The notes under the pieces: generated by a model
Database searches by the model: none
What the model was told of the DNA's origin: nothing
What the model saw: only the letters and a program-made list of their open reading frames with translations
In this document: positions 8,134 through 56,662 of the stretch, piece after piece
Numbering within the stretch: position 1 is the stretch's first letter
Layout: each line of letters starts with the position of its first letter
Translations under genes and position numbers: made by a program
NCBI RefSeq assembly: GCF_001536285.1
Contig: NZ_FAOZ01000010.1
Location: 62,001-126,000 of the forward strand
Origin: Parafrankia irregularis
GTDB lineage: Bacteria > Actinomycetota > Actinomycetes > Frankiales > Frankiaceae
Direction of reading: 5' to 3'
Length of the DNA stretch: 64,000 nucleotides

Positions 8134-8136
8134 GCG

Positions 8137-32348: not shown

Positions 32349-32504
32349 GGACGTCTCCCCGGCCGTTGTTCATATGTCTGCGCCTTCCTCTCCCCCACCC
32401 CGCACGACCCGCCACGAACACCCCGCCACCAGGGCAGTCAGGTGCATTCTCCCGTCTCGCAGCAGCCTGCTACGACGACCCGACCGCGGGTGGCCGCGAC
32501 GGCG

Positions 32505-33059: not shown

Positions 33060-33338
33060 CTCCGCGGTGATGGCGGACCTCCCTCAGTCGGGTCCTGCAG
33101 TCGGTCGGGCCCCTTGGCCAGCGTAACCAAGCCGGGATTCGCCTGTCCCGGTCCCGGTGTGCCCTCGGTGGCCTCATCGTCGGCGCTGCTCGATGGTGCC
33201 GGGTCCCCGGCTGGTGGCCGGGTGTTTGCTGGATGGCTATCCGCGGGACACCGAGCCGCCGCCCGGGGTCCACGGGTCCCTCACTACGATCCCTTCGTCC
33301 CAAACGCGCCATCTGCGAAAACACGAAAACGGGGGCCC

Positions 33339-38877: not shown

Positions 38878-41378
38878 CGATGAGCTCATCCACCTCCCCG
38901 GACCCGCCTGCCGACCCGGCCGAGGTCGGCCGGTACCGGTTGGTGCGGCGCCTCGGGGCGGGCGGAATGGGCACCGTCCACCTGGGTGTGGACCACGCCG
39001 GCCGCCAGGTGGCCGTCAAGCTCATCCGCACCGATCTGGCCTCCCGGCCGGAGTTCCGGGAGCGGCTCAAGCAGGAGGCGGACAGCGCCCGGCGGGTCGC
39101 CCGGTTCTGCACGGCCGCGGTTCTGGACGTCGACGTCACCGGGGACGTCCCGTACCTGGTCACGGAGTTCGTGGACGGGCCGACCCTGGCCGGGTCGGTA
39201 CGTGCGCGCGGGCCACTCAGCCACTCGGAGCTGCATCTGCTCGCCGCGAGCATGGCCACCGCGCTGATGGCGATCCACCGCGCGGGAATCGTGCACCGGG
39301 ACCTCAAGCCGGGCAACATCGTGCTGTCCAGGCTCGGTCCGAAGGTCATCGATTTCGGCATCGCCCGCGCGCTCGACACGGCCGTCTTCTCCAGCCGGGA
39401 CCAGGCGGTGGGCACACCCGCGTTCATGGCACCCGAACAGGCCCGCAGCGGCCTGATCACCCCCGCGGCGGACGTGTTCGCCTGGGGCGGGGTGCTCGTC
39501 TACGCCGCGACCGGCCATCATCCGTTCGGCACCGGCCCGGCCGCCACGCTGCTCCGCCGGGTGGTCAACGACGAACCGGCGCTGGACGGATTCGAGGATT
39601 CCCTGCGCCCGCTCGTCGAGGACGCGATGCGCAAGAACCCGCAGGAGCGGCCCACCGCCGAGCAGCTCTACGCCCGCCTGCTCGATCTGCGCCACACCGA
39701 GTCCGAGCCACCTGTGGGGCCGCCGCTCGCAGAGGTGACGGTGCTGATCGAGCCGGTCACCCCGCGAACGCCCGGCACGGCGGCGACCCCCGTGGACGCA
39801 GTGACGCACTCACTGTCCCCGCCGGCCCACACGTCGACGTCGACCGCGGCGACGGTGATGGTCCCGCCGGACTCCGCTGACCCGGAGCCAGCGATCCCCG
39901 CTCGTCCCGCCGCGGCCGAGATCGTCGAGACCCATCCGACCGTCATCCCGTCGACGCCGCCCGCGGGGACCGGCCCCGAGCGGCGAGAGCCGGAGCGGCG
40001 AGAGCCCGTGCGGCCGAAGCCGGGCGGGAAGCCCACCGGACGGGCCGGGCGGGCCGGGCGGGCCGGGATTGGGCGGCGCGGGGCGAGAGCGCTCGCGGCC
40101 ATCCTCGCCGTGGTCGTCGCCGCGGTTGTGCTCGTCGCCCTGTCCAGGAGCGGCGAGTCGCCACCGGCGGACACCCCCGCGCAGGTCGCGGCCAGAACGC
40201 TGCGCCTGCAGGTCGAGAACCGCCCGCTTGCCCGCCGACTCGCGCTGGCGAGCTACCAGGCGTCGCCGGACTCGCCGGCCACCCGGTCCGCAATGATCGG
40301 CCTGTTCGCCGCGGACCTCGATCCGCTGGCCGTGCCGCTCGGCAGCCGGGTGCTGAGCGCCGCGCTGCGCCCGGACGGCCGACTGCTCGCGGCCGGGACG
40401 GAGGCCGGGACGATCGAGTTGTGGGCCGTCGGCGGCGGCGCCGACCCGGCCGGCCTCACCCATGCCGACACCATCACGAACGTCGGCGACTGGGTGTACT
40501 CGGTCGCGTTCCATCCGAACGGAAGCGTGCTCGCGGCCGGTGTCGGTAACGGTCAGGTCCGTCTGTGGGACCTGGCGAACCCGGCACGGCCGAAGGCACT
40601 GGCCACCATGAGGTTCCACCAGGACAGGGTTCGCTCGATCGCCTTCGCCCCGGATGGCCAGGTCCTCGCCTCCGGCGGGGACGACGGGCAGATCGCGTTG
40701 TGGACGGTGGCTGATCCGTCGAATCCCACCCGGGTCTGGGCGGCTGACGGCGCCACCGCCGGGATCCGAGCGGTCGCGTTCTCGCCGCGCGGCCGGTTGC
40801 TTGCCTTCGGCGGCAACGACGGCACCGTGCGGCTGTGGGACGCCACGGATCCCGCGCGCCCCACGGCGCGACCCGCACTGCGCGGCGGTGAAAGTGGCGG
40901 CGGAGGTGGCGGGCGGACGCTGCAGGCTGTCGCCTTCTCCCCCGATGGTTCGGCACTCGCCGCCGGCGGTATCGACGGCTCGGTGCAGCTGTGGGGGGTC
41001 CGTTCGGCAGAGGCGGTCGACCTCGGCTCGACCGCCGGCGGCCTGGGCGGTGTGACCAGCGTCGGCTTCGACCAGGACGGCGGGATCCTCGCCACCGCGG
41101 GCGAGGACGACATCGTCCGGCTGACCGACGTCTCGTCGCCGGCCCGGCCCGTCCCGCTGACCGGTCTGCGCGGGCACACGAAGGCGGTGAACGCGGTCGT
41201 GCTGACGCCGGACGGGCGGACCGTGCTCTCGGCCAGCGGGGACGGATCGGTCCGGGTCTGGACCATCGACCCCGCGGCGCTGGCCCGGAACGCCTGCGCC
41301 GACCCGGCGAACCAGATCTCCACGGGGGAATGGCGTGAGCACTTCGGGAGCCTGCGCTTTGAACCGCCGTGCGCCTGA
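38874..41378 (+). CDS. Membrane Ser/Thr protein kinase with WD40 propeller
   Basis: Protein of 834 residues. PknB-type kinase domain (about 20-275): glycine loop LGAGGMG, K49 in VAVK, catalytic D143 in HRDLKPGN, D160 of DFG, and APEQ. A Pro/Thr-rich juxtamembrane linker leads to one transmembrane span (about 408-425; ILAVVVAAVVLVAL). The C-terminal part (about 485-815) contains seven or so WD40 units with recurrent VAFSPDG...LLAAGG...VRLW patterns, expected outside the cell in this topology. It starts in an ATGA overlap with the surface-protein gene. A propeller sensor on a bacterial Hanks kinase is known in actinomycetes and cyanobacteria; the ligand is not. Confidence 0.93.
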   Translation: MTMSSSTSPDPPADPAEVGRYRLVRRLGAGGMGTVHLGVDHAGRQVAVKLIRTDLASRPEFRERLKQEADSARRVARFCTAAVLDVDVTGDVPYLVTEFVDGPTLAGSVRARGPLSHSELHLLAASMATALMAIHRAGIVHRDLKPGNIVLSRLGPKVIDFGIARALDTAVFSSRDQAVGTPAFMAPEQARSGLITPAADVFAWGGVLVYAATGHHPFGTGPAATLLRRVVNDEPALDGFEDSLRPLVEDAMRKNPQERPTAEQLYARLLDLRHTESEPPVGPPLAEVTVLIEPVTPRTPGTAATPVDAVTHSLSPPAHTSTSTAATVMVPPDSADPEPAIPARPAAAEIVETHPTVIPSTPPAGTGPERREPERREPVRPKPGGKPTGRAGRAGRAGIGRRGARALAAILAVVVAAVVLVALSRSGESPPADTPAQVAARTLRLQVENRPLARRLALASYQASPDSPATRSAMIGLFAADLDPLAVPLGSRVLSAALRPDGRLLAAGTEAGTIELWAVGGGADPAGLTHADTITNVGDWVYSVAFHPNGSVLAAGVGNGQVRLWDLANPARPKALATMRFHQDRVRSIAFAPDGQVLASGGDDGQIALWTVADPSNPTRVWAADGATAGIRAVAFSPRGRLLAFGGNDGTVRLWDATDPARPTARPALRGGESGGGGGGRTLQAVAFSPDGSALAAGGIDGSVQLWGVRSAEAVDLGSTAGGLGGVTSVGFDQDGGILATAGEDDIVRLTDVSSPARPVPLTGLRGHTKAVNAVVLTPDGRTVLSASGDGSVRVWTIDPAALARNACADPANQISTGEWREHFGSLRFEPPCA

Positions 41379-41390
41379 CACCGCACCCAC

Positions 41391-41415
41391 CCGGAAACCC
41401 GATTCCGGTTTCCGG
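41391..41415 (+). terminator. Hairpin after the kinase gene
   Basis: Perfect 9-bp inverted repeat CCGGAAACC / GGTTTCCGG with a 7-nt loop, starting 12 bp after the kinase stop. No T-run. Probable intrinsic terminator or processing hairpin. Confidence 0.65.
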
Positions 41416-41890
41416 GCTCTCTGCTCAGGAACAAAAATTCCGGAGTCCCGGCGGTCCGGCCGTTCGGCGCGGTAAAGTTGCCGCTGGATTCAGGGGGGTA
41501 GGCGCCGCGAGCACCATCGGGGCCGTGACGGGCACCGGGCGACCACCGCGGCGGTAGGCGGAGTCAACATTCCGCTCTGTTTTCAGCGAAGGAGATCCGT
41601 CGTTACGCGCGGATAGAACCGGTCGGACAAGGCGGTCGAATCGGACAAGCCCGACGAGGCTTCCGGTTCAGCGTTGCGCGATGGTGAACAGTTAAATGCG
41701 GAAGATTGATATCTGACGGTATCGCCCTACGTTTCTGCTACACATGGTCCGCATCGGACAGTCCGGTGCGGAAATTCCCCGCAATGAATGCTCAGTTTCT
41801 GATGCGTAGGTCGGATCCGGGCCCGCTGCCGTCACTGACGGTCAGCGCAGGAAGGCACGGCCGCGGCGACCTGCCGGACAGGGGCCAGAA
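41416..41890. promoter_or_regulatory. Regulatory gap upstream of the five-gene cluster
   Basis: A 475-bp non-coding stretch, locally richer in A/T around 41560-41780 (for example GTTAAATGCGGAAGATTGAT). Its main feature is the 25-bp palindrome at 41748-41772. Short in-frame openings here show no coding character. The promoter of the cluster must lie here. Confidence 0.5.
41748..41772. promoter_or_regulatory. Near-perfect 25-bp palindrome, operator candidate
   Basis: Outer arms TCCGCA (41748-41753) and TGCGGA (41767-41772) and inner arms CGGAC and GTCCG are mirrored around a central base at 41760. Only the two single bases between arms and the centre break the symmetry. It ends 118 bp before the metallophosphatase ATG. 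A dimeric repressor or activator site is the natural reading. Confidence 0.65.
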
Positions 41891-44140
41891 ATGGACGACG
41901 TGCCGCTGCAGGTCGCGGCTCTCCCAGGCATCATCGCGGGCCCCGTGCTGCGCCGGGTGACCCGGACGAAGGTGTCCGTGTGGCTGGCGCTGAGCCGGCC
42001 GGATCCGGTCACGCTGCATGTCCGCAGAGCCGGGGTGCCCGCCTCGGAGATCGCCGCGGGGAGCGCGACGCCGGTCAGGGTCGGCGGCAGCCTGTGGATC
42101 GTGGTCGTCACCGGCACCGCACCGGGCGGGCAGTTCACCGCGGGTGACCTCTACGAGTACCGGATCAGCTCACCCGGCTGGCCCGAACCGAACTGGGGCG
42201 AGGTCTCGATCGGCACCGGGCGACCGGCGTTCCCCGCCCCACCCGCTTCCCTCGATGACCTGACGATCCTGCACACGTCCTGCCGCAAGGTCCACGGCAA
42301 CGGCCGGGACGGCCTGGCCGAGGCCGAGGAGCTCATCACCGGGCGGCTCGCCGCGGGCACACCGTCCGCCCGCCCGCACCTGCTCGTCATGTCCGGTGAC
42401 CAGATCTACGCCGACGAGGTTCCAGCCCCGCTGGTGCCGCGGATCCGCCGCATCGCCACCGATCTCGTCGCCGTCGACGACGCGGCGCCGTTCCTGCCGC
42501 TGCCGGCGATCGGGGGGCGGCAGGCCCGCTCGGAGGCCTATCACCTCACCTCCTCGGCGGCGAGCGACCATCTCTGGCGGTTCGGCGAGTTCCTGGCGAC
42601 CTACCTGCTCTACTGGTCCGACACGCTCTGGCCGGCGACCGTGCCGGCCTGGGCGGACGTCGCGCCCGGTGACGTCGCCGCGGACAGCGGCCTCGACGAG
42701 GCGTCGTGGGCCGAACTGCGCGCGGCCGTGGAGCTGTTCCGCGCCGGGCTGCCCGCCGTCCGCAAGGTGCTGGCGACCGTGCCGATCCTCATGGTGGCCG
42801 ACGACCACGAGGTGACCGACGACTGGAACCTCGACCACCCGTGGGCGGAGGCGGTCTACGCCGACGCGGCCGCCAGCCGCATCGTGACCAACGGGCTGCT
42901 CGCGTACGTCCTGTGCCAGCACTGGGGCAACACCCCGGAGCGGTTCACCGCCGCCGGCAGCCCCGAGGCCGCCGTCCTCGCCGCCGCCGTCCATACCGGC
43001 GCCTCCCCTGACACCCCGGCCCTGCGGCAGCTCCTCGGTGTTCCGGCCGGGCCGCCACCGCCGCCGCCGTCGGTCCTGCGCGACCTGACGGCTCCCGGAA
43101 CGCTGCGCTACGACTTCACCCTCGGCCCGGACGACGGCTGGCCCGTCCGGCTGCTCGCCCTCGACGAGCGCACCGCCCGCGAGTTCCACCGCGTCGACCA
43201 TCCGGCCGCGCGGATCAGCCTCGACGCCCTGGCACTCATGGTGCCGGAGCCCGGTGGCCTCGCCCCGGTCCCGCTCACGTTCGTCGTCGCACCGGCGCCG
43301 ATCCTCGGCACCCACCTGGTCGAGCACCTGATCCAGCCGGCGGCGAGCCTGATACCCGGCGGGTCGATCTTCGCCGACTTCGAGTCCTGGTCCGCGGCGA
43401 CCGCCAACCACCAGGAGCTACTGCGGCGCCTCACCGCACTGGGGCCGCTCGTCGTGCTGTCCGGCGACGTCCATTTCAGCGGCACGGCCGCACTGACCTA
43501 CACCCGCGCCGGGACGACGACGCGCGCGGCGCAGATCACCAGCAGCGCGGCGCGAAACGCGGAGGTGAAGACCATGGTCCTGCACCTGTTCGGGGACCTC
43601 GCCATGCGCCTGGGGCTGGAGCGGCACCGGGCGTTCAACGGCTACGCCGACCTCGGCCTGCCGCAGCGGGCGCAGCTCGCCGCCCCGCCGCCGGGGGCGG
43701 ACCTGCCCTACGACGAGTTCACCGACGTGTTCCTCGGCCGGGTGTTCCGGGCCGCGCAGGAGACTCCCACCGTCCTGTCCGAGGAGATCGCCGACGCCTA
43801 CGGGCTGACGCCGGGGCCCGGGGACTGGCGCTTCGAGGTGACACCGGTGGACGACGAGACCATGCCCGGCCCCGGTCCGCTGCTGACCGACATGACGGCC
43901 GCGCCCGCCCCGGCCGGGTGGACATCGTGGGACCCGGCCAGGTCGTACCTGATGCTCAAGGCACTGCGTGCCGGTGACCTGCACCGGATCGGGCGCATGT
44001 TCGTCGGGCTGCCGCAGCTGTCGCTGCTGGAGTTCGAAGCCACGCCGTTGGAGGTGCGGCACCTGATCGTCTCGCCGGTCGGCAACCATCCGTCCCCCGC
44101 CGCCCGCCAGCAGACGGTCACGAAGGTGCGGCTCGTCTGA
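41891..44140 (+). CDS. PhoD-type metallophosphatase-fold protein
   Basis: Protein of 749 residues without a signal peptide, so cytosolic, unlike exported PhoD. N-terminal beta domain (about 10-110) of the Fn3-like kind seen before PhoD catalytic domains. Metal-site motifs: D170 in MSGDQIYAD, D304-D305-H306-E in ADDHEVTDDWN, and D526/H528 in LSGDVHFSG. These three are the recognised PhoD/calcineurin-like blocks, so the site looks complete. The region after about 580 is extra and unassigned. First gene of a five-gene unit: its TGA shares a base with the next ATG (TGATG). A phosphodiesterase or phosphatase role is expected; the substrate is unknown. Confidence 0.85.
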   Translation: MDDVPLQVAALPGIIAGPVLRRVTRTKVSVWLALSRPDPVTLHVRRAGVPASEIAAGSATPVRVGGSLWIVVVTGTAPGGQFTAGDLYEYRISSPGWPEPNWGEVSIGTGRPAFPAPPASLDDLTILHTSCRKVHGNGRDGLAEAEELITGRLAAGTPSARPHLLVMSGDQIYADEVPAPLVPRIRRIATDLVAVDDAAPFLPLPAIGGRQARSEAYHLTSSAASDHLWRFGEFLATYLLYWSDTLWPATVPAWADVAPGDVAADSGLDEASWAELRAAVELFRAGLPAVRKVLATVPILMVADDHEVTDDWNLDHPWAEAVYADAAASRIVTNGLLAYVLCQHWGNTPERFTAAGSPEAAVLAAAVHTGASPDTPALRQLLGVPAGPPPPPPSVLRDLTAPGTLRYDFTLGPDDGWPVRLLALDERTAREFHRVDHPAARISLDALALMVPEPGGLAPVPLTFVVAPAPILGTHLVEHLIQPAASLIPGGSIFADFESWSAATANHQELLRRLTALGPLVVLSGDVHFSGTAALTYTRAGTTTRAAQITSSAARNAEVKTMVLHLFGDLAMRLGLERHRAFNGYADLGLPQRAQLAAPPPGADLPYDEFTDVFLGRVFRAAQETPTVLSEEIADAYGLTPGPGDWRFEVTPVDDETMPGPGPLLTDMTAAPAPAGWTSWDPARSYLMLKALRAGDLHRIGRMFVGLPQLSLLEFEATPLEVRHLIVSPVGNHPSPAARQQTVTKVRLV

Positions 44141-47100
44141 TGGCCGAGAAGTCACTCATCGAGGTGATCTCCGCGGCTTTCGCGGATGCCATGCGCTCGG
44201 CGCTGGACGGCACGAACCCGGCGCTGCCCCCGCTGAGCCCACCGGACGCGGCCGGCGCCCGGGCCGCCATCGAGCAGCTCGCCGACCGCGCCGGCGGTGT
44301 CACCGACGCGGCGGACCCGGTTGCCTGGCTGCAGGCGCTGGAAAGCTGGCGGGACACCGCGTCCGACGTGGCCGACCGGGCCTTCACCGGCCCGAACCCG
44401 GCCGAGCAGGCGTTCGTCCGCTTCCTCACCGAGCGGATGCCGCGCACGGCTGCCTTCCTCGCGCTGACCGGGGTGATCAGCCATACGCCGGACGGCCCGG
44501 CCCGGGTCGACCGGCCGAAGCTGCGCGCGCTCGTCACCGACCCGGGCACGCTCGTCAACGAGGGCCTGTGGGACGCGCTGCTCGCCGATGTCGGCCTGCC
44601 CGGCACCGGCCGCCTTCCCGCGGTGCTGGTCGGGCTGCTGCTGCTGGCGCCGCAGACCGTGCTCGCGCTCACCCGAGGCGATCTGCGCGTCGCGGGCCTG
44701 TCCGCGCCGCCGACGGCGCAGCCCGGCCCGTGGCGGGTGTTCCGCGAGGCCACCGAGGGCTGGATCTCCATCACCGTCCCGATCGGCGACCCCGCCGACC
44801 CGCAGCCCAACCCCCGCGACATGTTCGACTGGGCCGCCGACCTGACACCGGACCTGTCGGGCACGCTGGCAATCCGTTCGCAGCGCCACGACCTCGGCGG
44901 CGGGAAGCGCCGCACGGTCTTCGAGATGTGGCTCGCGCTGGCGGCCGAGGAGGACCGCTGGCAGTACGACTTCGGCAGCGGCTGGTACCTGCGGGTCGAG
45001 CCCGGCCTGACCGGCGGTTTCGGCTACGACGGCTCCTGGCACGGGGCGTTCCGCCAGTTCGCCCTCGACCCGGCCCGGCTGCCCGGGCCCGGTGACCCGG
45101 TCGAGGTCACGTTCGGCCGGGAGCTCGACGCTGGCGCGCCCGACATCGCCTTCGGCCCGCCGTACGACACCCGCCTGGTGCTCCGTGACCTCGGGCTGTT
45201 CCTGCGGCTGCGCGAGGACCACCCGGTCGTCGAGGTGGGCCTGTTCCTGCACGGCCTGTCGGCGGTGCTCACCAACCGCTGGTTCCGCACGTTCGGGGTG
45301 ACCGACACCGTCTTCCGGGACGGGATCCGGCTCGACCTGGATCTCGACCTCGCCTACGTCGAGGGCCGCGGTGTCGTGCTGGGCCTGTCCAGCGGCCTCG
45401 ACGTCACCCTCGGCATCGACGCGGAGTTCGGGAAGAACGCCCCCGTCGGCTTCAAGCTGCACAGCATCCGCATCCACGTCCCGGTGCGGGCCACCGAGGA
45501 CAGCTTCGACGTCCGCGCCGAGGTGCGCTTCCACATCTCGACCCATCTCGGCCCGGTGAGCCTGGTCGCCGACGGGCTCGGCGGCTGGGTGGGCTACTGG
45601 TCGGAGGACGACACCAGGAAGTACGTCGGTCTCCTCCCGCCGACCGGCGCCGGGCTGGAGATCTCCGCGGGCCCCTTCACCGGGGGCGGTTACCTCGACT
45701 TCACCGGCGGCCCGAACGAGCGGTTCGGCGGCGTCATCCACGTCAAGGTCGGCACGTTCGAGGTGACGGCCTTCGGCCTGCACGAACTGACCGGCGAACC
45801 AGGCGCGGCGAACCGCCCCACCTCGGTCATCGTCGTGCTCGGCGTGCGCTTCTCCCCTGGCATCCCGCTCGGGTTCGGTTTCGAGATCTCCGGTTTCGGC
45901 GGCCTGGTCGGCATCAACCGGCGGGCCGACACCGACGCGCTGCGGGAGCGGCTCACCAGCGGCGCGGCGGGCAACGTGCTGTTCGCCGAGGATCCGATCC
46001 GCAACGCGCCGCGCCTGCTCGACGACCTCGACCACCTCTTCCCGCGCAACGCGGGCACCCACGTGTTCGGCCCGACGATCCAGATCAGCTGGCTGAACAT
46101 CGCCGGGCACAAGGTGTTCCGGTTCGACGTCGGGCTCTTCTTCGAGTTCCCCGGGCCGCGGCGCATCGTGCTGCTGGGCTCCGCCCGCGCCCAGCTGCCG
46201 CCGCTGGCCGGCGGCCCGCACCTGATCGACATCCGGTTCGACATCGTCGGGTTCGTCGACTTCCCGAAGCGGATCGTCGAGGTCGACGCGACCCTCATCA
46301 ACTCCTCGGTGATGGAGATCTTCCACCTCACCGGCGACCTGGCGTTCCGGATCGCCTGGGGCGACCATCCGTACCTGCTGCTGAGCTTCGGTGGCTTCCA
46401 CCCGAGGTTCACCCCGCTGCCCGCGCAGTTCCCGGAGCTCGCCCGGCTCGCGCTCACCGTCAAGCCGGGGAAGCTCCCGGGCGGGGTGTTCTTCCGCGCC
46501 GAGGCCTACCTGGCCATCACCTCGAACACGGTGCAGTTCGGCGGGCAGGTGGAGCTCGGCTACAAGGCCGGCCCGCTCAACCTGATCGGTTTCGTCGCCC
46601 TCGACGCGCTCATCCAGTTCACCCCGTTCCACTTCGAGGTCACGATCAGCGCCGGGGTGCGGCTGCGCTGGAAGTCGACGAACCTCGCCGGGGTCCGGCT
46701 CGAAGGCACCCTGTCCGGCCCCGGGCCGTTCACGATCAGCGGCAAGGCCTGCTTCGAGATCCTCTGGTTCGACATCTGCGCCGACGTCAGGATCCAGCTC
46801 GGCAGCTCCGGGCAGCCGACCGCACCGCCGGTCAGCAGCGTCGTGCAGGCGCTGCGCCCGCAGCTCACCGAGCCGGCCAACCTGACCGCGCTCGACGGCG
46901 ACGACAACGAGGTCATCCAGGCCAGGCGGCCCGCGGCCGCCGGCGGCCATCCGCTGGTCTCCCCGCTGGGGGCGCTGAGCTGGGCGCAGAAGCGCACCCC
47001 GCTGGGCCTGACCCTCGACCGGTTCGACGGCGTGCCGCTGGCGGCACCGCAGCGGGTCGTCGTGGAGTCCCCGCGGGCCGCGGGCCCGGAGCAGGACTGG

Positions 47101-47514
47101 TTCGCGCCCGGCTCGTACGCGAACCTCACCGAGGCGGAGCGGCTCAACCGGCCCGCGTTCTCCCGGCTCGACGCGGGGATCAGGATCGGGCTCGGCGCCC
47201 CGGGGGCGTCCACGGCGATCCGGCGCGACGTGACGGTGGTGGAGATCCGGCTGCCGAAGCCGCCCAGCACCGGCGCGCTCGCGACCGCGTTCGCCGCCGT
47301 CACGCTTCGCGCCGCCCTGGAGCGCACCGCGCCGTCCCAGGTGCGCACGACGGCGCCGGCGTTCGGGGTGCGCGAGGAGCGGTTCGCCGTCCGCGACCGC
47401 GGTGGCGCGGTGCTGGCCGAGGACCTGTCCGTCAGCGAGGCACACCAGCGGGCCCGGCGCGCCGGCGGCGTCGCCGCGGCCAAGCGCGATCTCGTCGACC
47501 TGGGAGCGATCTGA
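44140..47514 (+). CDS. DUF6603-domain giant protein
   Basis: Protein of 1124 residues, no signal peptide or membrane span. N-terminal about 230 residues are helical. From about 380 to 870 it is a dense series of amphipathic beta strands that I match from memory to DUF6603: FGFEISGFGGLVGINRRAD near 576-594, then ALRERL, LFAEDPIRNAP, HVFGPTIQISW, GGFHPRFTPLP, SNTVQFGGQVELGY, FDICADVRIQL. The strand pattern recalls large beta-barrel or lipid-transfer-like folds. The C-terminal 250 residues are different and Pro/Ala-rich. Translation is coupled on both sides by one-base stop/start overlaps (TGATG). Function unknown for the family. Confidence 0.8.
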   Translation: MAEKSLIEVISAAFADAMRSALDGTNPALPPLSPPDAAGARAAIEQLADRAGGVTDAADPVAWLQALESWRDTASDVADRAFTGPNPAEQAFVRFLTERMPRTAAFLALTGVISHTPDGPARVDRPKLRALVTDPGTLVNEGLWDALLADVGLPGTGRLPAVLVGLLLLAPQTVLALTRGDLRVAGLSAPPTAQPGPWRVFREATEGWISITVPIGDPADPQPNPRDMFDWAADLTPDLSGTLAIRSQRHDLGGGKRRTVFEMWLALAAEEDRWQYDFGSGWYLRVEPGLTGGFGYDGSWHGAFRQFALDPARLPGPGDPVEVTFGRELDAGAPDIAFGPPYDTRLVLRDLGLFLRLREDHPVVEVGLFLHGLSAVLTNRWFRTFGVTDTVFRDGIRLDLDLDLAYVEGRGVVLGLSSGLDVTLGIDAEFGKNAPVGFKLHSIRIHVPVRATEDSFDVRAEVRFHISTHLGPVSLVADGLGGWVGYWSEDDTRKYVGLLPPTGAGLEISAGPFTGGGYLDFTGGPNERFGGVIHVKVGTFEVTAFGLHELTGEPGAANRPTSVIVVLGVRFSPGIPLGFGFEISGFGGLVGINRRADTDALRERLTSGAAGNVLFAEDPIRNAPRLLDDLDHLFPRNAGTHVFGPTIQISWLNIAGHKVFRFDVGLFFEFPGPRRIVLLGSARAQLPPLAGGPHLIDIRFDIVGFVDFPKRIVEVDATLINSSVMEIFHLTGDLAFRIAWGDHPYLLLSFGGFHPRFTPLPAQFPELARLALTVKPGKLPGGVFFRAEAYLAITSNTVQFGGQVELGYKAGPLNLIGFVALDALIQFTPFHFEVTISAGVRLRWKSTNLAGVRLEGTLSGPGPFTISGKACFEILWFDICADVRIQLGSSGQPTAPPVSSVVQALRPQLTEPANLTALDGDDNEVIQARRPAAAGGHPLVSPLGALSWAQKRTPLGLTLDRFDGVPLAAPQRVVVESPRAAGPEQDWFAPGSYANLTEAERLNRPAFSRLDAGIRIGLGAPGASTAIRRDVTVVEIRLPKPPSTGALATAFAAVTLRAALERTAPSQVRTTAPAFGVREERFAVRDRGGAVLAEDLSVSEAHQRARRAGGVAAAKRDLVDLGAI

Positions 47515-50195
47515 TGGCTGTGCGTCTGGACTTCTACGCCTGGCGCCGGTCCACCGTCTTCGAGGCGGTGGCCACCCCGGCGCTCACCCCGGCCGGCCGG
47601 CTCACCGGGCGCGTCCCGCTGACGTTGCGCAACACCGAGCGGCTGGGCGACACGGCCACCGAGAGCGTCGTGTTCGACCTGCTCGGCCCCGGCGACGTCG
47701 GCGGCCTGAAGCCGGCGGCCGTGCGGCGCGTCGTCCCGGCGCCCGGGTCGACGGAGGCGGAGAACACCAAGTGCGCCTACGTCGAGTTCAGCGCCCCGGA
47801 CCTGCCCTGGCGGTACACCCCGCGCCTCGCCGCGGGACGTCAGCTCGCCCCCTGGCTCGTCCTGGTCGTCGGGACGCCGGAGGAGATCGTGCCGCAGCCC
47901 GGCGGAACGGTCGCGATCAGCGCCAGCGCCCTGGGGGCGCACCGGCTCGTCGAGTCCCCCCGGTGGGCCCATGTGCAGGACGACGTCGACCATCCCGGCC
48001 AGCGGCTGGTGTCGCGGCTGCTCTCCCCGCGCCCGCTCGCCGGGAACACCGGCCACCGCGCGGTCATCGTCCCCGCGTTCACGCCGAACGGCGCGCCCGC
48101 CTGGGCCGACGGCTCCCCCGGGGTGACCGTGACGCTGCTCTACTCCTGGGAGTTCACGACGGCGCCGGCGGGTGACTTCCCCACCCTCGCGGCCCGGCTG
48201 CGGCCGCACTCCGGCGACGCCACGCTCGGCCGGGTGGCGCTGGCCTACCCACTGCCGCCCTCCCCGGGCCCAGGGCCGGAGGCGCCGATCGTGCGCGGCG
48301 CGCTGGCGCCCCTCGACAGCGTGGACGTCGACATCCCGGTGGAGATCGGCGACGACCTGGAGACGATCGCCGCACCGGTGCTCGACCCGGCCGCCGACGC
48401 GCGGCGCCCCGTCGTCTCGCTGCCGGTGTACGGCGACGCCTGGGTGGCCGACCCGACGCTTGCCCTGTGGTCGGCGCAGTTCCGCCGCGACCCGAGGCAC
48501 CGGGCCGTCGCCGGCCTCGGCGCGAAGGCGGGCATCGACGAGCAGGACAAGATCGTGGACGCCGCGGTGGCCCAGGCCGGGGCGCTCGCCGCGGCGTCCG
48601 AGCGGATCAGGGCGCTGACGGCGGGGCTGGCCGCGGCCTCGGCGCTGTGGAACCGCCGGCTGCCGCAGGACCGGCTCCGCCGCCTGGTCGTCTTCGGGCC
48701 GGCCCTGCGCGGCATGCAGACGCAGACCGGCACCGTGCTCGACCGGGCGACGGGTGGGGCGCGCCCGCTGCCGCCCGCGATCTTCTCCGCGGCCGCGCGG
48801 CGGGTCCTGCGCCCCGGCCCGGCGCGCACCCGGCACGCCGCCGACGGCGCGACCGACCCGCGGGCCGTGCTGGAGGTGGCCAACCGGTGCGCCGAGCCGC
48901 CGCCCCGCGCGCCGGACGGCCTGCCACACAGCGACCACCTCAGTGAAGTCGTCGGGGTCCGCAACCTCGACAAGGTGCTGCGAGCGGCTGCCGGGACGGG
49001 CCGGGTGCCCGTCAGACGGCTGCGCGACCTTGTCGGCGCCTTCGACCGCAGCCCCTACAGCGCCTCCACCGTCGGGTTCTTCGAGCAGGTCATGCGGCAG
49101 ATCCTCGACCGGGTCGAGGCGGGCCGGCCGATCCCGCTGTTCGATGTGCTGACCGTCCTCGAACCGCGCGACGGCCATCCGCTCCCGGAGCAGGACCTGC
49201 TGATCGCCCTGCGTGCCCTGCTGTCCGAACGGCCCGACGACGAGTACGACACCCCGGTGCTGGACGACCTCGTCATCGAGGTGCTGACCGAGCGCCCCGA
49301 CCGCCCCTGCGACCCCGTCGACCTCGACCGGCTCGCCGACGCCGTCGCCGACGCCGTCGATCCGACGGCGCACCACCCGGTCGTCGTCGACCGGGTGCTG
49401 GACACCATCGACGGCCTCGACGACCAGCCGCTCACCCCGCCGGAGCTGTCCCCGGATCTCGACATCCCCGCCTGGCAGCTGCTGCGCGACCACGATCCCG
49501 ACTGGCTGCTGCCCGGTGCCGGCACCATGCCGGTCGACCGTGTCGTCGCCGTGACGACGAACCTGGTGTTCGTCGACGCCTACCTGCTGGGGCTGAACAC
49601 CCAGATCCTCGGCGAGCTGCGGTTCCGCAACATCGCGGTGCGGGCGGGCAGCACCCCCCTGCGCCAGTTCTGGTCCCGGGCGGCGCCGGACGGCGAGAGC
49701 TTCCTGGACGACATCCACGGCGTCCACCTGTGGCCGACCGGCTCGGCGCTGGGCAGCGGCACCCACCAGCCGCCGGCCGCCGCCGGCGCCGACCTCGTCA
49801 TCGTCGCCCGGACCCCGCTGTTCCGCCGCTACCCGCACACGGTCGTCTACCTCACCCCGGCGCCGCTCGCCGGCGGCGAGCCCGACTGGGACGCCGCGCC
49901 CGACCTGGCCCAGCGCATCATCCCCAGCTTCCAGGGCTCGATCACCCCCGAGATCGTCTTCTTCGGGTTCGACCTCGACCCGGCGCTCGGCGGGCAGCAC
50001 TGGGTGGTGTTCGAGGAGCCGCCGCACGGCGTCCAGTTCTTCAGCGGCCCCCACGAAGGCCTCTCCCCGGCGCGACGTCACGTGTACACCGACCCGTTGC
50101 TTCACCTCGACGGCGCCGAGTTCGCCGACGCCGCCTACGCCGACCCCTACCGCGTGATGGTCCGCGGATCGTCACTGATTCCGGGAGCGCTGTGA
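47514..50195 (+). CDS. Conserved giant protein A of the DUF6603 cluster (unknown function)
   Basis: Protein of 893 residues, cytosolic by sequence. N-terminal half (1-300) is beta-rich: LDFYAWRRSTVFE, LRNTERLGD, LVLVVGTPEEI. The C-terminal block (about 660-893) has distinctive motifs: LPGAGTMPVDRVV, TNLVFVDAYLLGLNTQ, LRFRNIAV, TPLRQFW, RYPHTVVYLTPA, PSFQGSITPEIVFFGFDL and WVVFEEPPHGVQF. I recall the same motif order from unannotated large proteins of other bacteria but know no function. Start at ATG 47514 overlaps the DUF6603 stop by one base; its own TGA overlaps the next GTG. No nucleotide-binding or protease motif seen. Confidence 0.7.
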   Translation: MAVRLDFYAWRRSTVFEAVATPALTPAGRLTGRVPLTLRNTERLGDTATESVVFDLLGPGDVGGLKPAAVRRVVPAPGSTEAENTKCAYVEFSAPDLPWRYTPRLAAGRQLAPWLVLVVGTPEEIVPQPGGTVAISASALGAHRLVESPRWAHVQDDVDHPGQRLVSRLLSPRPLAGNTGHRAVIVPAFTPNGAPAWADGSPGVTVTLLYSWEFTTAPAGDFPTLAARLRPHSGDATLGRVALAYPLPPSPGPGPEAPIVRGALAPLDSVDVDIPVEIGDDLETIAAPVLDPAADARRPVVSLPVYGDAWVADPTLALWSAQFRRDPRHRAVAGLGAKAGIDEQDKIVDAAVAQAGALAAASERIRALTAGLAAASALWNRRLPQDRLRRLVVFGPALRGMQTQTGTVLDRATGGARPLPPAIFSAAARRVLRPGPARTRHAADGATDPRAVLEVANRCAEPPPRAPDGLPHSDHLSEVVGVRNLDKVLRAAAGTGRVPVRRLRDLVGAFDRSPYSASTVGFFEQVMRQILDRVEAGRPIPLFDVLTVLEPRDGHPLPEQDLLIALRALLSERPDDEYDTPVLDDLVIEVLTERPDRPCDPVDLDRLADAVADAVDPTAHHPVVVDRVLDTIDGLDDQPLTPPELSPDLDIPAWQLLRDHDPDWLLPGAGTMPVDRVVAVTTNLVFVDAYLLGLNTQILGELRFRNIAVRAGSTPLRQFWSRAAPDGESFLDDIHGVHLWPTGSALGSGTHQPPAAAGADLVIVARTPLFRRYPHTVVYLTPAPLAGGEPDWDAAPDLAQRIIPSFQGSITPEIVFFGFDLDPALGGQHWVVFEEPPHGVQFFSGPHEGLSPARRHVYTDPLLHLDGAEFADAAYADPYRVMVRGSSLIPGAL

Positions 50196-53100
50196 GCACG
50201 CCGATCATCGGGGTTCTGCTGCCACTGCGGCTGGAGACACGGTTCGCCGAACCCGACGCCCCGGGAGCCGGCTGGCGGCTCAAGGTCCGGGTTGTGCCCG
50301 ACGCGGCCAGCCTCGACCGGCACAACCCGCTGCCGCTGGACAGCGAGCTCGACGCGGTCGAGGCGCTGTGGCAGGCGGTGGACGGCGGTGTCGACGCCCT
50401 GGCCACCGAGCACGGCCGGGCGCAGTGGCAGGCGTTCGCCGCGCAGGTCGGCGCCGCCCGCGGCGCCTGGCTGGCCCGCTCGTTCCCCGCCGAGCCCGCC
50501 CCCGGCGGTGGCTGGCGGATCACCCGGCCCGCGGCGACCAGCGAGCCGCTGACCTTCGCCCGGGTCGCCGGCCTGCCGAAGACCCTGCAGCTGTGGCTCG
50601 GCCGCGGCGGCGGCGCGCCGGTCCGGATCGCCGAGCTCACCGTCGACCGCGACCGGCTCGCGCTCGACCCACCCGACCCGGAGACCGGCCAGGCCCGCTG
50701 GTGGACGTCCTTCAAGGAGGCCGAGCAGGTCCAGCTCGGCACCACAATCGACCTCGGGCCGGACCGGCCCGACGACATCGACGTCCTCTACGTGGTCGGC
50801 CTCGGCGAGGAGTCTCCCGCCGACCTGTTCGCCGCACACCGCGACGCCGGCATCCTCGGCGTCGCCGCGCTGGGAACCGCCACCAACAGTGTGGACGGCG
50901 CCCCGACGACGGATCTCGCCCGCGACCCCGAGGTGTGGCGCACCCTGCTCACCGCGCCGCCGCCGCAGCCCGGCGCGGAGGCGGTCAGCGCGGCGCTCAC
51001 CGGGAAGGACACCGCCCTCGGGCCACTGCCCGGCGGCGAGACCGACCACCGGCCGGTCAACCAGGCACTGGTCGGCAGCCTCTGGTCGGTCCTGTGGGGC
51101 CACTGGGTCAAGGACGTGTGGCTGGACGGCAAGGGCCTCGAGCTCGGGGCATGGGCCTACGACCACCTCGCCCCGGAGGGCCCGTTACCGCCGATCCGGA
51201 TCGGGGACCAGCCGTACGGTGTGCTGCCGGTCTCGGCGCCCTCCCGCTGGGTCACCGCGCCCGGCGACCCGGCCGTGGAGAAGCATGTGCTGCGGGTCGG
51301 GCTCGGCGCCCGCGACGTCGCCGCGACGGCGGCCGAGGCGGCCGGCACGATCGTCGGCGCCGACACCGCGCGGCTGCTCGACCTGATCGGCCGGGTTCCG
51401 GCCTCCCGCGGCTACGCCTGGCGGTGGGCGCTGCCACTGGAACTGCTCTACCTGCTCGAATGGGCCTACGGGGACGGCGTGCCCTGGGCGCGGCTGCAGA
51501 AATGGTGGGACGAGACCGCCGTCCGCGCGACGAAGATCGCGGACCGGTCACCGTCCCGGCGCTACGCCACGCTCGGCGAGCCGCAGGACCTCACGCTGCC
51601 ACTCGTCGTGCCGACCAACCTCACCGACGGCAGGGCACTGGACAAGCTGATCGAGATCCTGCTCGACGTGCCACCGAAGGAGCTCGCCTCCCCCCGGATC
51701 CTCGACGAGGTGTTCCGGCCGATGCCCGACAGCCTGCTGTTCCGGCTGTTGCTGCACGCGCGCCTGGTGGACACCGCCGAGGTGGTCCGGTTCACGGTCG
51801 AGGCCAGCGGACCCGCGCTGGAGCCGATCGAGGCCCCCGACTCCGAGCCGACCCGGCTGGCCAGGTGGGCCTCCCAGTTCAACGACGCGATGGTGGGCTC
51901 CGACCCGGCGAGCCTGCTGTTCCGGATCGGGCGGGAGGCACTCGGCGCGCTGCCGGGCCTGGACCCGGCGGTCGTCGAACGCGTCCTGCGGGCGACGCTC
52001 GACACGGCCTCGCACCGGATCGACCCCTGGCTCACCGGGGTGGTGACCCGGCGGCTGCGGGAGCTGACGGCCGCGGTGGAGCCGGCGCGGTTCCAGCTCG
52101 GCGCCTACGGGTGGGTGGACGCGCCCCGCCCCCGTGACCCGGCGGCTCCCCCGCCACCCGCCGAATACCTGCACGCGCCGTCCATGGAGCAGGCGCTGAC
52201 CGCCGCGGTTCTTCGCGACCGCGCGCTGTCCGACGCGGAACCCGCCCGCTGGCAGATGGACGTCGACAGCGACCGGGTACGGCTCGTCGAGGAACTGGCG
52301 GAGCAGGTCCGGCTCGGCAGCCACCTCACCGAGGTCCTCGGCCGCGCGGTGGAGCGCGCGGTGGCGGCCCAGGCCGACGTCGAACGGCTCCGGGCGCAGT
52401 TCCCGATCCGGGTCGAACACACCGGCCGCCGGGTCTGCGACGGTCAGGCGGTCCTCGACCGGTACGTCACGAACCCGGCCGATCTGGGCCTCACCGGGGC
52501 CCAGATCGACGCGCTGGCACCGCTCGCGCACGCCGTGGACACCTATGGCGACCTGCTGGTCGCCGAGGCCGTCCACCACGTCGTCTCCGGCCGCGGCGCG
52601 ATGGCGGCGACGGCGATGGAGGCCGCCGCGGGGCTCGCCGCACCCCCCACGCTGGAGGTGCTGCGCACCCGGCGGGGCGGGCGCATCGCGCGCACCACCG
52701 TCGTGGCCGCGCTGCCCGCCGCCGCTGGCCCGCCGGCACCGGACGCCTTCACCAGCCCCGGGGTGCTGGCCGAGCCGGCCGTCGCGGCCTTCCTCGAAGC
52801 CCAGACCGGCGCGCCGGGCACGGACCCGTGGCGCTGGGAGGCACTCGACACCGCCGACCAGCCACTCGGCCCGGTCACCCTTGCCGACCTCGGTCTGACG
52901 CCCGTCGACACGCTGTCGCTGTCGGCTGTGAACCTGTACGAGCTCGCGCTCGCCGCCGTCGAGGGAGCGGCCCGACTCGAACCGGCCGCCCTGCCCGCCC
53001 AGGCCGCGGCCCAGCGGCTGGCCGACATCCTCGGCAGCCGCCCGGTGCTGCCGGAGGATCTCGTCACCGGTGGGCCGGCGGCGCCTGGCACGGAGGCGGC

Positions 53101-54040
53101 GCTCGCTTCGCTGCAGGCAGGCGTCCAGGCCGAGCTGCACGGCCGGTACAGCGCCGTGCACGCGCTCGCGGACGACCTGCGGACGTGGCTGGTGGCGGCG
53201 GCCGCCGACCCCGCCGACCACGCTGCGGCACTGGTCGGCGCGGCCCGCTGGGGTATCACCCCGCTGCGCGCGGACGGCGCGCCGACCGCGACGCTCGTGG
53301 CCCGCGCGGCGGCGGCGCTGTCCGAACGACTGGCGAAGGCACCTTCGCCGGCCGCCGCGGCCGCGCTCGCGCCGGCGGCGCTGGCCAGCGCGCTGGCGGA
53401 ACTGGTCTCGCCGGAAGGACGCCTGCCCATCCTGTCCCGGCTGCCGCTGGACCAGCTACCGACCGCTCTGGTCCCCGACGTCGCCGGGCCGGCCGCGCTC
53501 GACCCGTACTGGCTCGAGGTCGTCTCGCCCGTCCGCGCGCACCTGGCCCGGTTCGAGGCGTACCAGCTCAGCAGGCACGTCTGGGGACTGCGCCCGCTCG
53601 CCGCGTGGACGAACCGGCCGGGCGACCCGTGGCAGCGCGAACCCCTGCCCGACGCCGACGCGCCCCCGGTGGACAACCACCTGCTCGCGGCGTTCGGCCC
53701 GGCCGGGGCGCTGGACCCGGCCGCCGGCCCGGCCCGGCCCGTCGCGCTCGGCCTGGTGGACTCGTTCAGCGAGGTCATCCCGGCCACCGACCACACGACG
53801 ACGGTCGCCTTCCACGTGGATGCGCCGGCGTCGCGGGCACCGCAGGCCGTGCTGATCGCCGTCCCGCCGGATGTCGACGTTCCGCTCGACACCGAGGCGC
53901 TCGTCGACGTCCTCGCCGACACCCGCCGGCTGGTCCGGGCCCGCGCGGCCGCCCCGCCGGACCTGGACGCGCTGGCCGCGGGCACCCCGTCCGTGCTGCT
54001 GCCAGCGCACCAGCCCACCGGCATCAGCCTCACGAAGTAA
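50192..54040 (+). CDS. Conserved giant protein B of the DUF6603 cluster (unknown function)
   Basis: Protein of 1282 residues from the GTG at 50192, inside a GTGA overlap with the previous stop; the open frame further upstream is not used. It starts IIGVLLPLRLETRF, a strand typical of this group. Other landmarks: DIDVLYVVGLGEESPADLF (about 190-210), PIRIGDQPYGVLPVSAPSRW (about 332-351), YLHAPSMEQALTAAVLRDRAL (about 658-678), WQMDVDSDRVRL, and a helical, Ala-rich C-terminal half with a final NRPGDPWQREPLP and LGLVDSFSEVIP. No transmembrane span, no signal. I recall the QPYGVLPV and HAPSxxQAxTAAVLR motifs from equally unannotated giant proteins. Function unknown. Confidence 0.7.
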   Translation: MSTPIIGVLLPLRLETRFAEPDAPGAGWRLKVRVVPDAASLDRHNPLPLDSELDAVEALWQAVDGGVDALATEHGRAQWQAFAAQVGAARGAWLARSFPAEPAPGGGWRITRPAATSEPLTFARVAGLPKTLQLWLGRGGGAPVRIAELTVDRDRLALDPPDPETGQARWWTSFKEAEQVQLGTTIDLGPDRPDDIDVLYVVGLGEESPADLFAAHRDAGILGVAALGTATNSVDGAPTTDLARDPEVWRTLLTAPPPQPGAEAVSAALTGKDTALGPLPGGETDHRPVNQALVGSLWSVLWGHWVKDVWLDGKGLELGAWAYDHLAPEGPLPPIRIGDQPYGVLPVSAPSRWVTAPGDPAVEKHVLRVGLGARDVAATAAEAAGTIVGADTARLLDLIGRVPASRGYAWRWALPLELLYLLEWAYGDGVPWARLQKWWDETAVRATKIADRSPSRRYATLGEPQDLTLPLVVPTNLTDGRALDKLIEILLDVPPKELASPRILDEVFRPMPDSLLFRLLLHARLVDTAEVVRFTVEASGPALEPIEAPDSEPTRLARWASQFNDAMVGSDPASLLFRIGREALGALPGLDPAVVERVLRATLDTASHRIDPWLTGVVTRRLRELTAAVEPARFQLGAYGWVDAPRPRDPAAPPPPAEYLHAPSMEQALTAAVLRDRALSDAEPARWQMDVDSDRVRLVEELAEQVRLGSHLTEVLGRAVERAVAAQADVERLRAQFPIRVEHTGRRVCDGQAVLDRYVTNPADLGLTGAQIDALAPLAHAVDTYGDLLVAEAVHHVVSGRGAMAATAMEAAAGLAAPPTLEVLRTRRGGRIARTTVVAALPAAAGPPAPDAFTSPGVLAEPAVAAFLEAQTGAPGTDPWRWEALDTADQPLGPVTLADLGLTPVDTLSLSAVNLYELALAAVEGAARLEPAALPAQAAAQRLADILGSRPVLPEDLVTGGPAAPGTEAALASLQAGVQAELHGRYSAVHALADDLRTWLVAAAADPADHAAALVGAARWGITPLRADGAPTATLVARAAAALSERLAKAPSPAAAAALAPAALASALAELVSPEGRLPILSRLPLDQLPTALVPDVAGPAALDPYWLEVVSPVRAHLARFEAYQLSRHVWGLRPLAAWTNRPGDPWQREPLPDADAPPVDNHLLAAFGPAGALDPAAGPARPVALGLVDSFSEVIPATDHTTTVAFHVDAPASRAPQAVLIAVPPDVDVPLDTEALVDVLADTRRLVRARAAAPPDLDALAAGTPSVLLPAHQPTGISLTK

Positions 54041-54080
54041 GGGAGCGGACAGTGCTGCAGCGGACGGTGCGGAGCGCCTC

Positions 54081-55646
54081 ATGACGCGATTCGATCTGGG
54101 ACGTCGGCTGGAGCCGATCCGCCCCGTGACGGACCTCGGCCGTGGGTTCCGCGCCGAGATCGCGGACCCGGCGTGGTTCCTGGCCCGGCAGTGGCACCTC
54201 GGCGAGCACCAGGGCGAGGACGCCGCCTCCCCCACCCTCGTACGCCACGTGGCCGCGCATCACCCGGTCGACCCGCTGCTGCCGCCGGCGACCGACCCCG
54301 ACCAGGCGACGGATCCCGCGGTCGTGCCCGCCGAGGCGATCATCGAGGCGGAGTCCGACGAATGGTGGACACCGGGCCGCCGGATCCGCGTCGGCCGTGA
54401 CCTCGCGACGTCCAGGCCGGCGCTGCTGGCCGACACCAGCCTGCGGCTCGCCGGGCTCCCACCGCCCTACGACGCTCTCGACGGCACCGGCGTCGACGGC
54501 CTCACGGCCTACCGGCGACGCGCCGAGCTCGGCCTGACGGCGGCCGACTTCCCCGGCGTGCCGACCGTCCCCGCCGCCGACCTGTGGGATCCCGCCGAGT
54601 TCGTGCACACCGCCGAGTTCACCAGCGGTGGTGTGGCCCTTCAGGTACCTCGCCATCGGGGCGGGGACGTCGACTGGTACTCGGTCCAGGCCAAGGAGCC
54701 GCCCGCTCCGGGCAGCGGCCCGGAGGTGCTGCGGGAGGTGCTGCCCAGCCGGCTGAAGTACCCGGGCGCGCCGCATCCCCGCTGGTGGCAGATCGAGAAC
54801 GCGCACGTCGACATCGGCGGCTTCCCGCCGGACCGCAGCCACCTGGCGACCATGCTGCTGATCGACCTGGTGATGTCCCACGCCGACGACTGGTTCAGCT
54901 TCCCGGTGGAGGCGAGCGCCGGGACCCTGGTCACACTGCGGGAAGTCGTCGTCGTGAACTCGTTCGACGAGGAGATCGTGCTGACGGCACCGGCGGACTG
55001 GAGCCTGTTCCGCATCACCGGCCTCGAACCCTCCACCCTCGCCATCTGGCCGACGGCGGTGACGCCGCTGAGCGACCGGCCCGTCGACGACGTCGCCGTC
55101 GGCCTCGACGAGGACGCGAACCTGCTGTGGGCCGTCGAGCACCGGGCCGCCGGCCGCGACCTGGCACCCGTCGCCGCAGCCACCGGCTCCACGTCGCCAC
55201 CGGAGGGGCCACCGGATGGCCCCCCGCAGGCACCCGACACCTCCGGCGAGGTGCTCGGCAGCGAGCCCGTCAGCTACGCCTACCGGCCGAGCACGACGCT
55301 GCCCCGGTACTGGCACCCCTACCCGGTGCGCGAGGTCGACGGGCGGCGGCGCTTCGTCCAGGGGCAGCTGCGGGACCTGGAGGCACGCCCGCCGGTGCCG
55401 ATGCCCGCGCCGGTCAGCCCGCTGCTCGAGGACCCACACGCGCCGGCCGACGGGCCCGCGCACCAGATCGAGCCGGCCGCGCTCCCGACGACCGGCGTGC
55501 GGCTGCAGCGGCAGTGGAAGCTGGCCAGGCGGACCGACGGCCGCCCCGTGCTGTGGATGCAGCGCCAGCAGCTGCCGTTGATCGGCCCACCGGTCTCCGG
55601 GCTGCGCTTCGACATCGCCGAGGCCCGGCACCCTTCCGCCGGCTGA
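54081..55646 (+). CDS. Conserved protein C of the DUF6603 cluster (unknown function)
   Basis: Protein of 521 residues. ATG at 54081 has GGAG six bases upstream, 40 bp after the previous stop. N-terminus FDLGRRLEPIRP, then DPAWFLARQWHLGEHQGEDA, an acidic/aromatic segment also met in homologues. Central HPRWWQIENAHVDIGGFPPD and MSHADDWFSFPVE with a following VVVVNSFDEEIVL strand, then NLLWAVEHRAAGRD. C-terminal ALPTTGVRLQRQWKLARR. Trp/His-rich motifs suggest a compact binding domain. The same order (WWxxExAxVDxGxxxPxxxxxA, NDWFxxPV, LxWAVE) is, to my memory, conserved in homologues beside proteins like A and B. Function unknown. Confidence 0.7.
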   Translation: MTRFDLGRRLEPIRPVTDLGRGFRAEIADPAWFLARQWHLGEHQGEDAASPTLVRHVAAHHPVDPLLPPATDPDQATDPAVVPAEAIIEAESDEWWTPGRRIRVGRDLATSRPALLADTSLRLAGLPPPYDALDGTGVDGLTAYRRRAELGLTAADFPGVPTVPAADLWDPAEFVHTAEFTSGGVALQVPRHRGGDVDWYSVQAKEPPAPGSGPEVLREVLPSRLKYPGAPHPRWWQIENAHVDIGGFPPDRSHLATMLLIDLVMSHADDWFSFPVEASAGTLVTLREVVVVNSFDEEIVLTAPADWSLFRITGLEPSTLAIWPTAVTPLSDRPVDDVAVGLDEDANLLWAVEHRAAGRDLAPVAAATGSTSPPEGPPDGPPQAPDTSGEVLGSEPVSYAYRPSTTLPRYWHPYPVREVDGRRRFVQGQLRDLEARPPVPMPAPVSPLLEDPHAPADGPAHQIEPAALPTTGVRLQRQWKLARRTDGRPVLWMQRQQLPLIGPPVSGLRFDIAEARHPSAG

Positions 55647-55726
55647 GGCCGGCTGAGGCCGGGGACCGCTCCTGCGGTAACCGTCGGAAAACCGACCGGC
55701 ATCCTGTCGCGTTGGCTTCAGCCCAC

Positions 55727-56662
55727 ATGACGGTGTCGAGCCACCATGGGCCCGTGATCAGGATTTCAGGGCCCAGAGGTCAGCAGCAGGACGACAGCGC
55801 CGGTACCGGCCCCGGCCTGCCCCGCCGCAGTCTCCGCCTGGTCCGGTCGCGGCCCCGCGGTCCAGTGACGGCGGCCGTCGCCTGCGTCCTGCTGTTGGGG
55901 GCTCCGCTGGCGCTGGTCACCGGCTGCCAGCCGAGCAGCGGCAGCGGCGGCAGCGGGAAGAGCACCGGCACCCACACTCATGCCAGTACGCGCACGACAC
56001 CGCGGGACAAACCACCAGCCGTGCCGGCGGGACAGCCGAACTCCCCCACCACCCGGGCACCGGGCGGGTCGTCGGCCTACCGGATCACCATCAGGAACGA
56101 GCGGGGGGCGATCGAGCCGAGCGCCAGCTACACCGCGCAGGTGCCGGTGCTGGCCGGCCCCGACGCGACGGTCGTGCGCCGGGTGAACGCGGCCATCGCC
56201 GCGTACGTCGACCAGGAGAAGGCCCACACCGCCCATGAGACCCTCACCCTGACAGCCGGCGATCCGCATGTGGGCACGCGGGTGCTGGCCCTCTCCTTCG
56301 GCGGCGACCGCTACCCACCCGGCGCGGCGCACCCCAGCGAGCTCGCCAGTGGCCTGGTCTTCGACCTGCGCACCGGTGACCGCGTCACCATCGAGGACGT
56401 CTTCACCTCCACCGACGCGGGCCTGCGCCGGCTGGAGCCGGTCGTCCGGGCCGAGCTGGAGCGGCGGTTCCCGGACGGCCCGACGGGCGGGGTCACCGAT
56501 CCGCTGCCGGCCAACTACCAGCAGTTCGTGGTGAACCCGAAGGGCCTGGTGGTGATCGTGACGGAGCTGCCGTACGTGCTCGGGCCGCAGAGCGTCCTCG
56601 TCCCGTGGAACAGCCTCGACGGCCTCGTCCGGCCCGAGCTCGCCGAGATCCTGCGCTCCTGA
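55727..56662 (+). CDS. Lipoprotein with DUF3298-like domain
   Basis: Protein of 311 residues (ATG 55727; an in-frame GTG at 55754 is possible). Basic n-region, hydrophobic core VTAAVACVLLLGAPLALV, lipobox VTGC. A Ser/Gly/Thr linker precedes a domain of about 190 residues: ITIRNERGAIEPSASYTAQVPVL, then GGDRYPPGAAHPSELASGLVFDLRTGDRVT, split here by family pattern as the DUF3298/RsiV C-terminal type, with the Y-P-P-G-A-A-H-P segment characteristic. RsiV proteins are anti-sigma factors that bind lysozyme, but this one has no anti-sigma region. Not clearly part of the preceding cluster (80-bp gap). Confidence 0.75.
   Translation: MTVSSHHGPVIRISGPRGQQQDDSAGTGPGLPRRSLRLVRSRPRGPVTAAVACVLLLGAPLALVTGCQPSSGSGGSGKSTGTHTHASTRTTPRDKPPAVPAGQPNSPTTRAPGGSSAYRITIRNERGAIEPSASYTAQVPVLAGPDATVVRRVNAAIAAYVDQEKAHTAHETLTLTAGDPHVGTRVLALSFGGDRYPPGAAHPSELASGLVFDLRTGDRVTIEDVFTSTDAGLRRLEPVVRAELERRFPDGPTGGVTDPLPANYQQFVVNPKGLVVIVTELPYVLGPQSVLVPWNSLDGLVRPELAEILRS

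Follow-up and report, generated by a model that had tools for sequence, protein, structure and literature searches.

A horizontally moving DUF6603-A-B-C gene block with an exchangeable enzyme in Parafrankia irregularis, other bacteria and haloarchaea

The window analyzed here is a 64,000-nucleotide stretch of Parafrankia irregularis DNA (contig NZ_FAOZ01000010.1). A cassette of five genes was observed in it, all on the + strand, with the following features.

41380-55680, + strand: the whole mobile cassette, its limits drawn from the empty site in congeners
41380-41890, + strand: non-coding leader of 510 bp within the cassette, missing in congeners along with the genes
41891-44140, + strand: predicted PhoD-type metal-dependent phosphoesterase, 749 residues (PF09423 match and metal motifs)
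44140-47514, + strand: core 1, DUF6603 protein, 1124 residues (PF20248 match; first core gene in 25 loci)
47514-50195, + strand: core 2, gene A, 893 residues (alignment; always immediately 3' of DUF6603)
50192-54040, + strand: core 3, gene B, 1282 residues, GTG start (alignment; QPYGVLPV and GAYGWVD motifs)
54081-55646, + strand: core 4, gene C, 521 residues (alignment; last core gene)

The junctions are overlaps of 1, 1 and 4 bases, followed by a gap of 40 bases before C, and the leader probably holds the promoter. A preliminary description of this DNA had reported five coupled + strand genes of these sizes without signal peptides, the first with all three PhoD metal blocks and the second belonging to DUF6603. 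All frames were confirmed, and both assignments were borne out by Pfam. The first protein matched PF09423 at 6.9e-9 (35.7 bits, cut-off 27) with its metal blocks GDQIYADE, DDHEVTDDW and SGDVHFSG intact, and the second matched PF20248 at 8.7e-110 (368 bits, cut-off 27). By hydropathy, none of the five proteins has an N-terminal signal or a convincing transmembrane segment; the single hydrophobic stretch of the DUF6603 protein is at residue 159. In alignments, the N- and C-terminal regions of protein A were conserved and its middle was variable, while protein C carried the motifs RQWxLGExxGEDAxSP and RWWxxExxxVDxGG.

Proteins A, B and C had no significant match to any family of Pfam, NCBIfam or PHROGs. 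Nothing meaningful came up when profiles of the four core families were run against the PDB, and none of the five cassette proteins matched PADLOC-DB 2.0.0, even at an E value of 1. In profile comparison, the four core families showed no homology to one another or to the C-terminal domain that some companion proteins share (see below). AlphaFold2 predictions from two-sequence alignments had a mean pLDDT of only 37 for residues 351-937 of DUF6603 and 29 for protein C, and for this reason neither was taken to a fold search; DUF6603 was predicted to be all-beta at very low confidence. For DUF6603, neither a function nor a structure was found, and a search of the open-access literature yielded no paper. 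The impression that no described system has this composition stood, and the linked DUF6603-A-B-C set is without description in the databases and open-access literature searched.

Elsewhere in the window, 1015-12486 encodes two large proteins that resemble polyketide synthases and contain ketoacyl synthase and acyltransferase domains; the first of them also contains KR and nitronate monooxygenase domains (PfaD-like). They are followed by a glycosyltransferase and an ABC transporter. A PhoX-type alkaline phosphatase lies at 32130-34787, about 7 kb 5' of the cassette.

The earlier suggestion that the other giant genes may form a conserved set was supported by their neighborhoods in distant genomes. 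By profiles and gene maps, DUF6603, A, B and C were contiguous, on the same strand and in the same order at 25 loci, one of them the window, spread over Actinomycetota, Pseudomonadota, Gemmatimonadota and haloarchaea. Maps beyond the annotated records rest on open frames and third-position G+C, and gene starts in them are therefore approximate; C was located by tblastn in one Natrinema copy, and DUF6603 by profile search in G527. Among 72,556 plasmids, tblastn found DUF6603 in 14 records, A in 13, B in 10 and C in 14, and the record sets were nearly identical. These records, through which alone genomes outside Actinomycetota entered the survey, come from Paraburkholderia, Nocardia, Rhizobium, several Streptomyces and Gemmatirosa and, in haloarchaea, from Salinigranum, Halalkalicoccus, Halobellus and Natrinema. 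In the class of G104 (66 genomes), DUF6603 was present in 7 genomes and B in 8, and all 7 were among the 8. The system is rare, with DUF6603 in 8 of 246 Actinomycetota genomes; a profile search of the window's class gave 15 of 394, a few sister-type proteins counted in. Since the same genes recur in the same order in distant genomes, the five-gene arrangement is not due to chance, and the four core families are almost certainly a real conserved module.

The module varies in detail. B and C are fused into a single 2101-residue frame in G236, Rhizobium and Halobellus have a split A or B, and C was not recognizable in G565. Incomplete copies stand at contig ends in G324, G326, G333, G006, G041, G599, G238 and MT835531. 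The last of these (L029), a gut contig labeled 'UNVERIFIED bacteriophage' with DUF6603, A, B and C, was the sole match in the phage collection, and with a G+C content of about 77% it is probably bacterial sequence filed as phage. A pattern search of 2.9 million viral contigs (IMG/VR) found no relatives. The plasmid of Natrinema gelatinilyticum has two divergent core copies (L042 and L043) about 150 kb apart on one megaplasmid. In G041 (L121 2674-11532, - strand), a DUF6603 frame of 2,952 residues has a long N-terminal part with an alpha/beta-hydrolase-like stretch whose nucleophile motif reads VGHGIAG; this is possibly a fused hydrolase that is inactive.

A sister type of locus was found in G246 (L077 10207-21378), G288 (L080 1805-13293) and G276 (L081), and in G343, G379 and G655, the remaining sister-type loci being L122, L123 and L124. 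Here longer or divergent DUF6603 proteins, some above 3,000 and up to about 3,600 residues, adjoin an A-like protein. The A-like family of G246, G276 and G288 matched A in profile comparison with a probability of 97 (E value 1.6e-11). Upstream of the pair in G246 is a protein with weak metallo-beta-lactamase matches, for which this fold is possible.

Three congeners, G001, G005 and G002, lack exactly 41380-55680. In these empty sites, the end of a gene for a Ser/Thr protein kinase with WD40 repeats (window 41378-41379) is separated by 20-363 bp from the region of the DUF3298 gene (window 55681-56078 onward). The five genes were therefore gained or lost as one unit. The kinase gene (38874-41378) had been considered as a sensor of the cassette and was rejected, because the cassette-free congeners retain it; its Ser/Thr kinase-WD40 propeller marks the insertion site. 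No integrase and no terminal repeat was found. G005 has a cluster of its own elsewhere in its genome, with an S8 companion. In a tree of the concatenated core, the window clusters with Mycolicibacterium, G005 of the window's own genus clusters with G325, a member of another class, and Rhizobium clusters with G014 of the window's family. Since this tree is at odds with species relations, the core has been transferred.

The gene at the position of PhoD, here called the companion, is usually immediately 5' of DUF6603 and frequently overlaps it or nearly so, and it differs among loci as follows.

PhoD-type, 6 loci: window, Mycolicibacterium hodleri (L063), G104, Salinigranum, S. longwoodensis and G527
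S8 subtilase, 3 loci: G005, G325 and Nocardia (downstream in the last)
M64 metallopeptidase, 4 loci: G159 and G324 (Pfam), G332 (HExxHxxGLxDEY motif only) and G565 (weak phmmer match and HELGH motif)
Trypsin-like proteases with GDSG motifs, 2 loci: Paraburkholderia (two genes) and Gemmatirosa (three)
Divergent LodA-type gene beside the core: G333
WD40 protein: G236 and S. NBC_01724
Proteins of about 900 residues without a family: haloarchaea
No recognizable companion: Rhizobium, G014, G420 and G520

The LodA-type (L-lysine oxidase-like) protein of G333 (L085 7164-11068) is large and divergent to the DUF6603 gene, and its tail looks peptidase-like by eye. When companion type was mapped on the core tree (19 tips), 9 changes were needed, compared with a minimum of 6 and with at least 10 for shuffled labels, and the same type was found in separate core clades. 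Companions are therefore inherited for a while and then exchanged; the core moves horizontally as a block with an exchangeable enzyme.

The S8 (G005 and G325) and trypsin-like (Paraburkholderia and Gemmatirosa) companions have in common a domain of about 115 residues with a consensus around VKLAWHRxxGPAF, which is C-terminal except in one internal case. One Gemmatirosa query retrieved other copies among 3,620 ORFs with phmmer (E values 2e-11 to 3e-5), and the G325 copy was added by eye and joint profile. Pfam has nothing at this domain, and it had no match in 396 Actinomycetota genomes, a search set without a positive control; it is known so far only next to the DUF6603-A-B-C core. A common module on unrelated protease folds beside a common core suggests a docking domain, which would bind the core. 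The PhoD and M64 companions are without the domain, so docking cannot depend on it alone.

These observations bear on the idea that the companion has no relation to the core and is a chance neighbor, or merely an enzyme that processes the giant core proteins. PhoD relatives occur on other plasmids without the core, some loci have no companion, and the proteases could serve as maturation enzymes. However, independent loci have the companion at one and the same place, where its gene often overlaps the core or nearly does so (window, G325, Salinigranum and Paraburkholderia), unrelated proteases carry the common C-terminal domain, and all five genes were gained or lost together. Maturation would also leave PhoD unexplained. 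We thus regard an unrelated companion as improbable.

The PhoD protein had been put forward as a metal-dependent effector. As a hydrolase it is a plausible one, but other companions proved able to take its place, and in two PhoD companions active-site residues are lost. The metal motifs are intact in the window, Mycolicibacterium, G104 and Salinigranum; they are lost in S. longwoodensis, and in G527 the last motif reads SGDVGYG, with active-site residues lost in part. Hydrolysis is therefore not required everywhere. The companion is very probably an effector.

The core could instead be a metabolic or storage scaffold that binds a polymer or lipid, with the companion hydrolyzing or maturing the bound material. 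PhoD enzymes hydrolyze phosphodiesters, and the all-beta prediction for DUF6603, at its very low confidence, would suit such a role. On the other hand, the replacement of a phosphoesterase by three kinds of protease is hard to fit with one substrate, and the spread is patchy, as the low count of DUF6603 in Actinomycetota genomes shows. A scaffold of this kind is likewise improbable.

The main rival explanation is an enzyme-bearing extracellular particle, leaving the cell on lysis or by an unknown means of export, in which the core forms a shell or surface assembly and the companion is a payload used against neighbors or for nutrient release. PhoD, S8 and M64 enzymes are usually exported, and the companion families are mostly extracellular enzymes. 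Some core proteins have FG-GAP and lamin-tail domains, which are common outside cells, the S. longwoodensis PhoD is fused to a PG-binding domain, and one core is adjoined by the LodA-type oxidase. Nevertheless, the core and companion proteins inspected have no signal peptide by hydropathy, as opposed to a dedicated signal-peptide predictor, the core has no tail, sheath or needle family in Pfam or PHROGs, and the viral contigs held no relatives with the patterns used. We consider the extracellular particle unlikely, though less so than the two alternatives above.

Our best explanation, held with middling confidence, is a modular effector system that moves horizontally and acts in the cytoplasm. 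Its four large co-translated core proteins, DUF6603, A, B and C, would assemble into one big complex, which would detect a trigger and hold or activate the companion enzyme; once triggered, the companion would hydrolyze targets within the same cell. A physical complex of the core proteins is probable, the fixed stoichiometry that the preliminary description drew from the gene coupling would be conjectural, and the B-C fusion in G236 supports a putative contact of that pair only. The likeliest setting would be a conflict system, antiviral or directed against other invaders. We hold such a conflict or defense function tentatively, at slightly less than an even balance. Several points weigh against the best explanation. 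The core is without a sensor NTPase, a nucleotide cyclase, a nuclease and any known defense gene, and no consistent defense-island neighborhood was demonstrated. To these are added the PhoD companions with lost active-site residues, the companion-free loci, the usually exported companion families, and the FG-GAP and lamin-tail domains.

The core families are widespread but rare and unannotated, and in two domains of life they behave as a single transferable module. Should they form a complex in control of exchangeable proteases and phosphoesterases, this would be a new architecture for controlling effectors with no NTPase as sensor, and it would offer a first approach to DUF6603. A broader proposal, more tentative than the conflict function, is that bacteria and haloarchaea share a new kind of modular complex with an immune or effector role, in which four giant families without known relatives may recruit and trigger unrelated hydrolases (phosphoesterase, subtilase, M64 and trypsin-like), partly through a dedicated C-terminal adaptor domain.

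Several known systems resemble the cassette in part. Its PhoD protein has the same three metal motifs as PhoD-like phosphatases (PF09423), but differs in having no export signal, a long C-terminal extension and a place inside a giant-protein operon. Like contractile injection systems and Tc toxin complexes, the cassette is an operon of several very large proteins with a variable payload; unlike them, its core has no sheath, tube, baseplate, needle or RHS family, as neither sheath, tube, baseplate and tail families (PHROGs and Pfam) nor TcA, TcB and RHS-type TcC (Pfam and NCBIfam) gave a significant match. As for the traits of polymorphic toxins, there is no export signal by hydropathy and no constant small partner gene in the maps, short of a systematic search for immunity genes. 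The vWA-MoxR-VMAP ternary systems and other conflict systems share with the cassette a small domain that is common to different effectors and could act in recruitment, peptidase effectors and an occurrence in Actinomycetota (PMC7159879). The cassette core differs from them in lacking MoxR, vWA, VMAP and STAND, and the shared domain has no Pfam match; Pfam domains of MoxR ATPase, vWA and VMAP were absent from the core and the flanking genes tested. Effector-associated domains are the closest analogy for the shared module, with no claim of membership (PMC7159879). Bacterial immune systems (AVAST, Hachiman, Lamassu and DRT with MBL nuclease and trypsin-like protease) have in common a set of interchangeable effector genes, trypsin-like proteases and MBL hydrolases among them (PMC12799240). 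The cassette core is unrelated to the modeled defense proteins and has no ATPase, helicase or reverse transcriptase, and PhoD, S8 and M64 dominate among its companions, with no nuclease-protease pair seen. Yet it combines a conserved core with swappable enzymes, including trypsin-like proteases and a possible MBL-fold protein, at patchy and transferable loci, and we take the interchangeable immune effector pool, without claiming membership in it, as the closest working analogy (PMC12799240).
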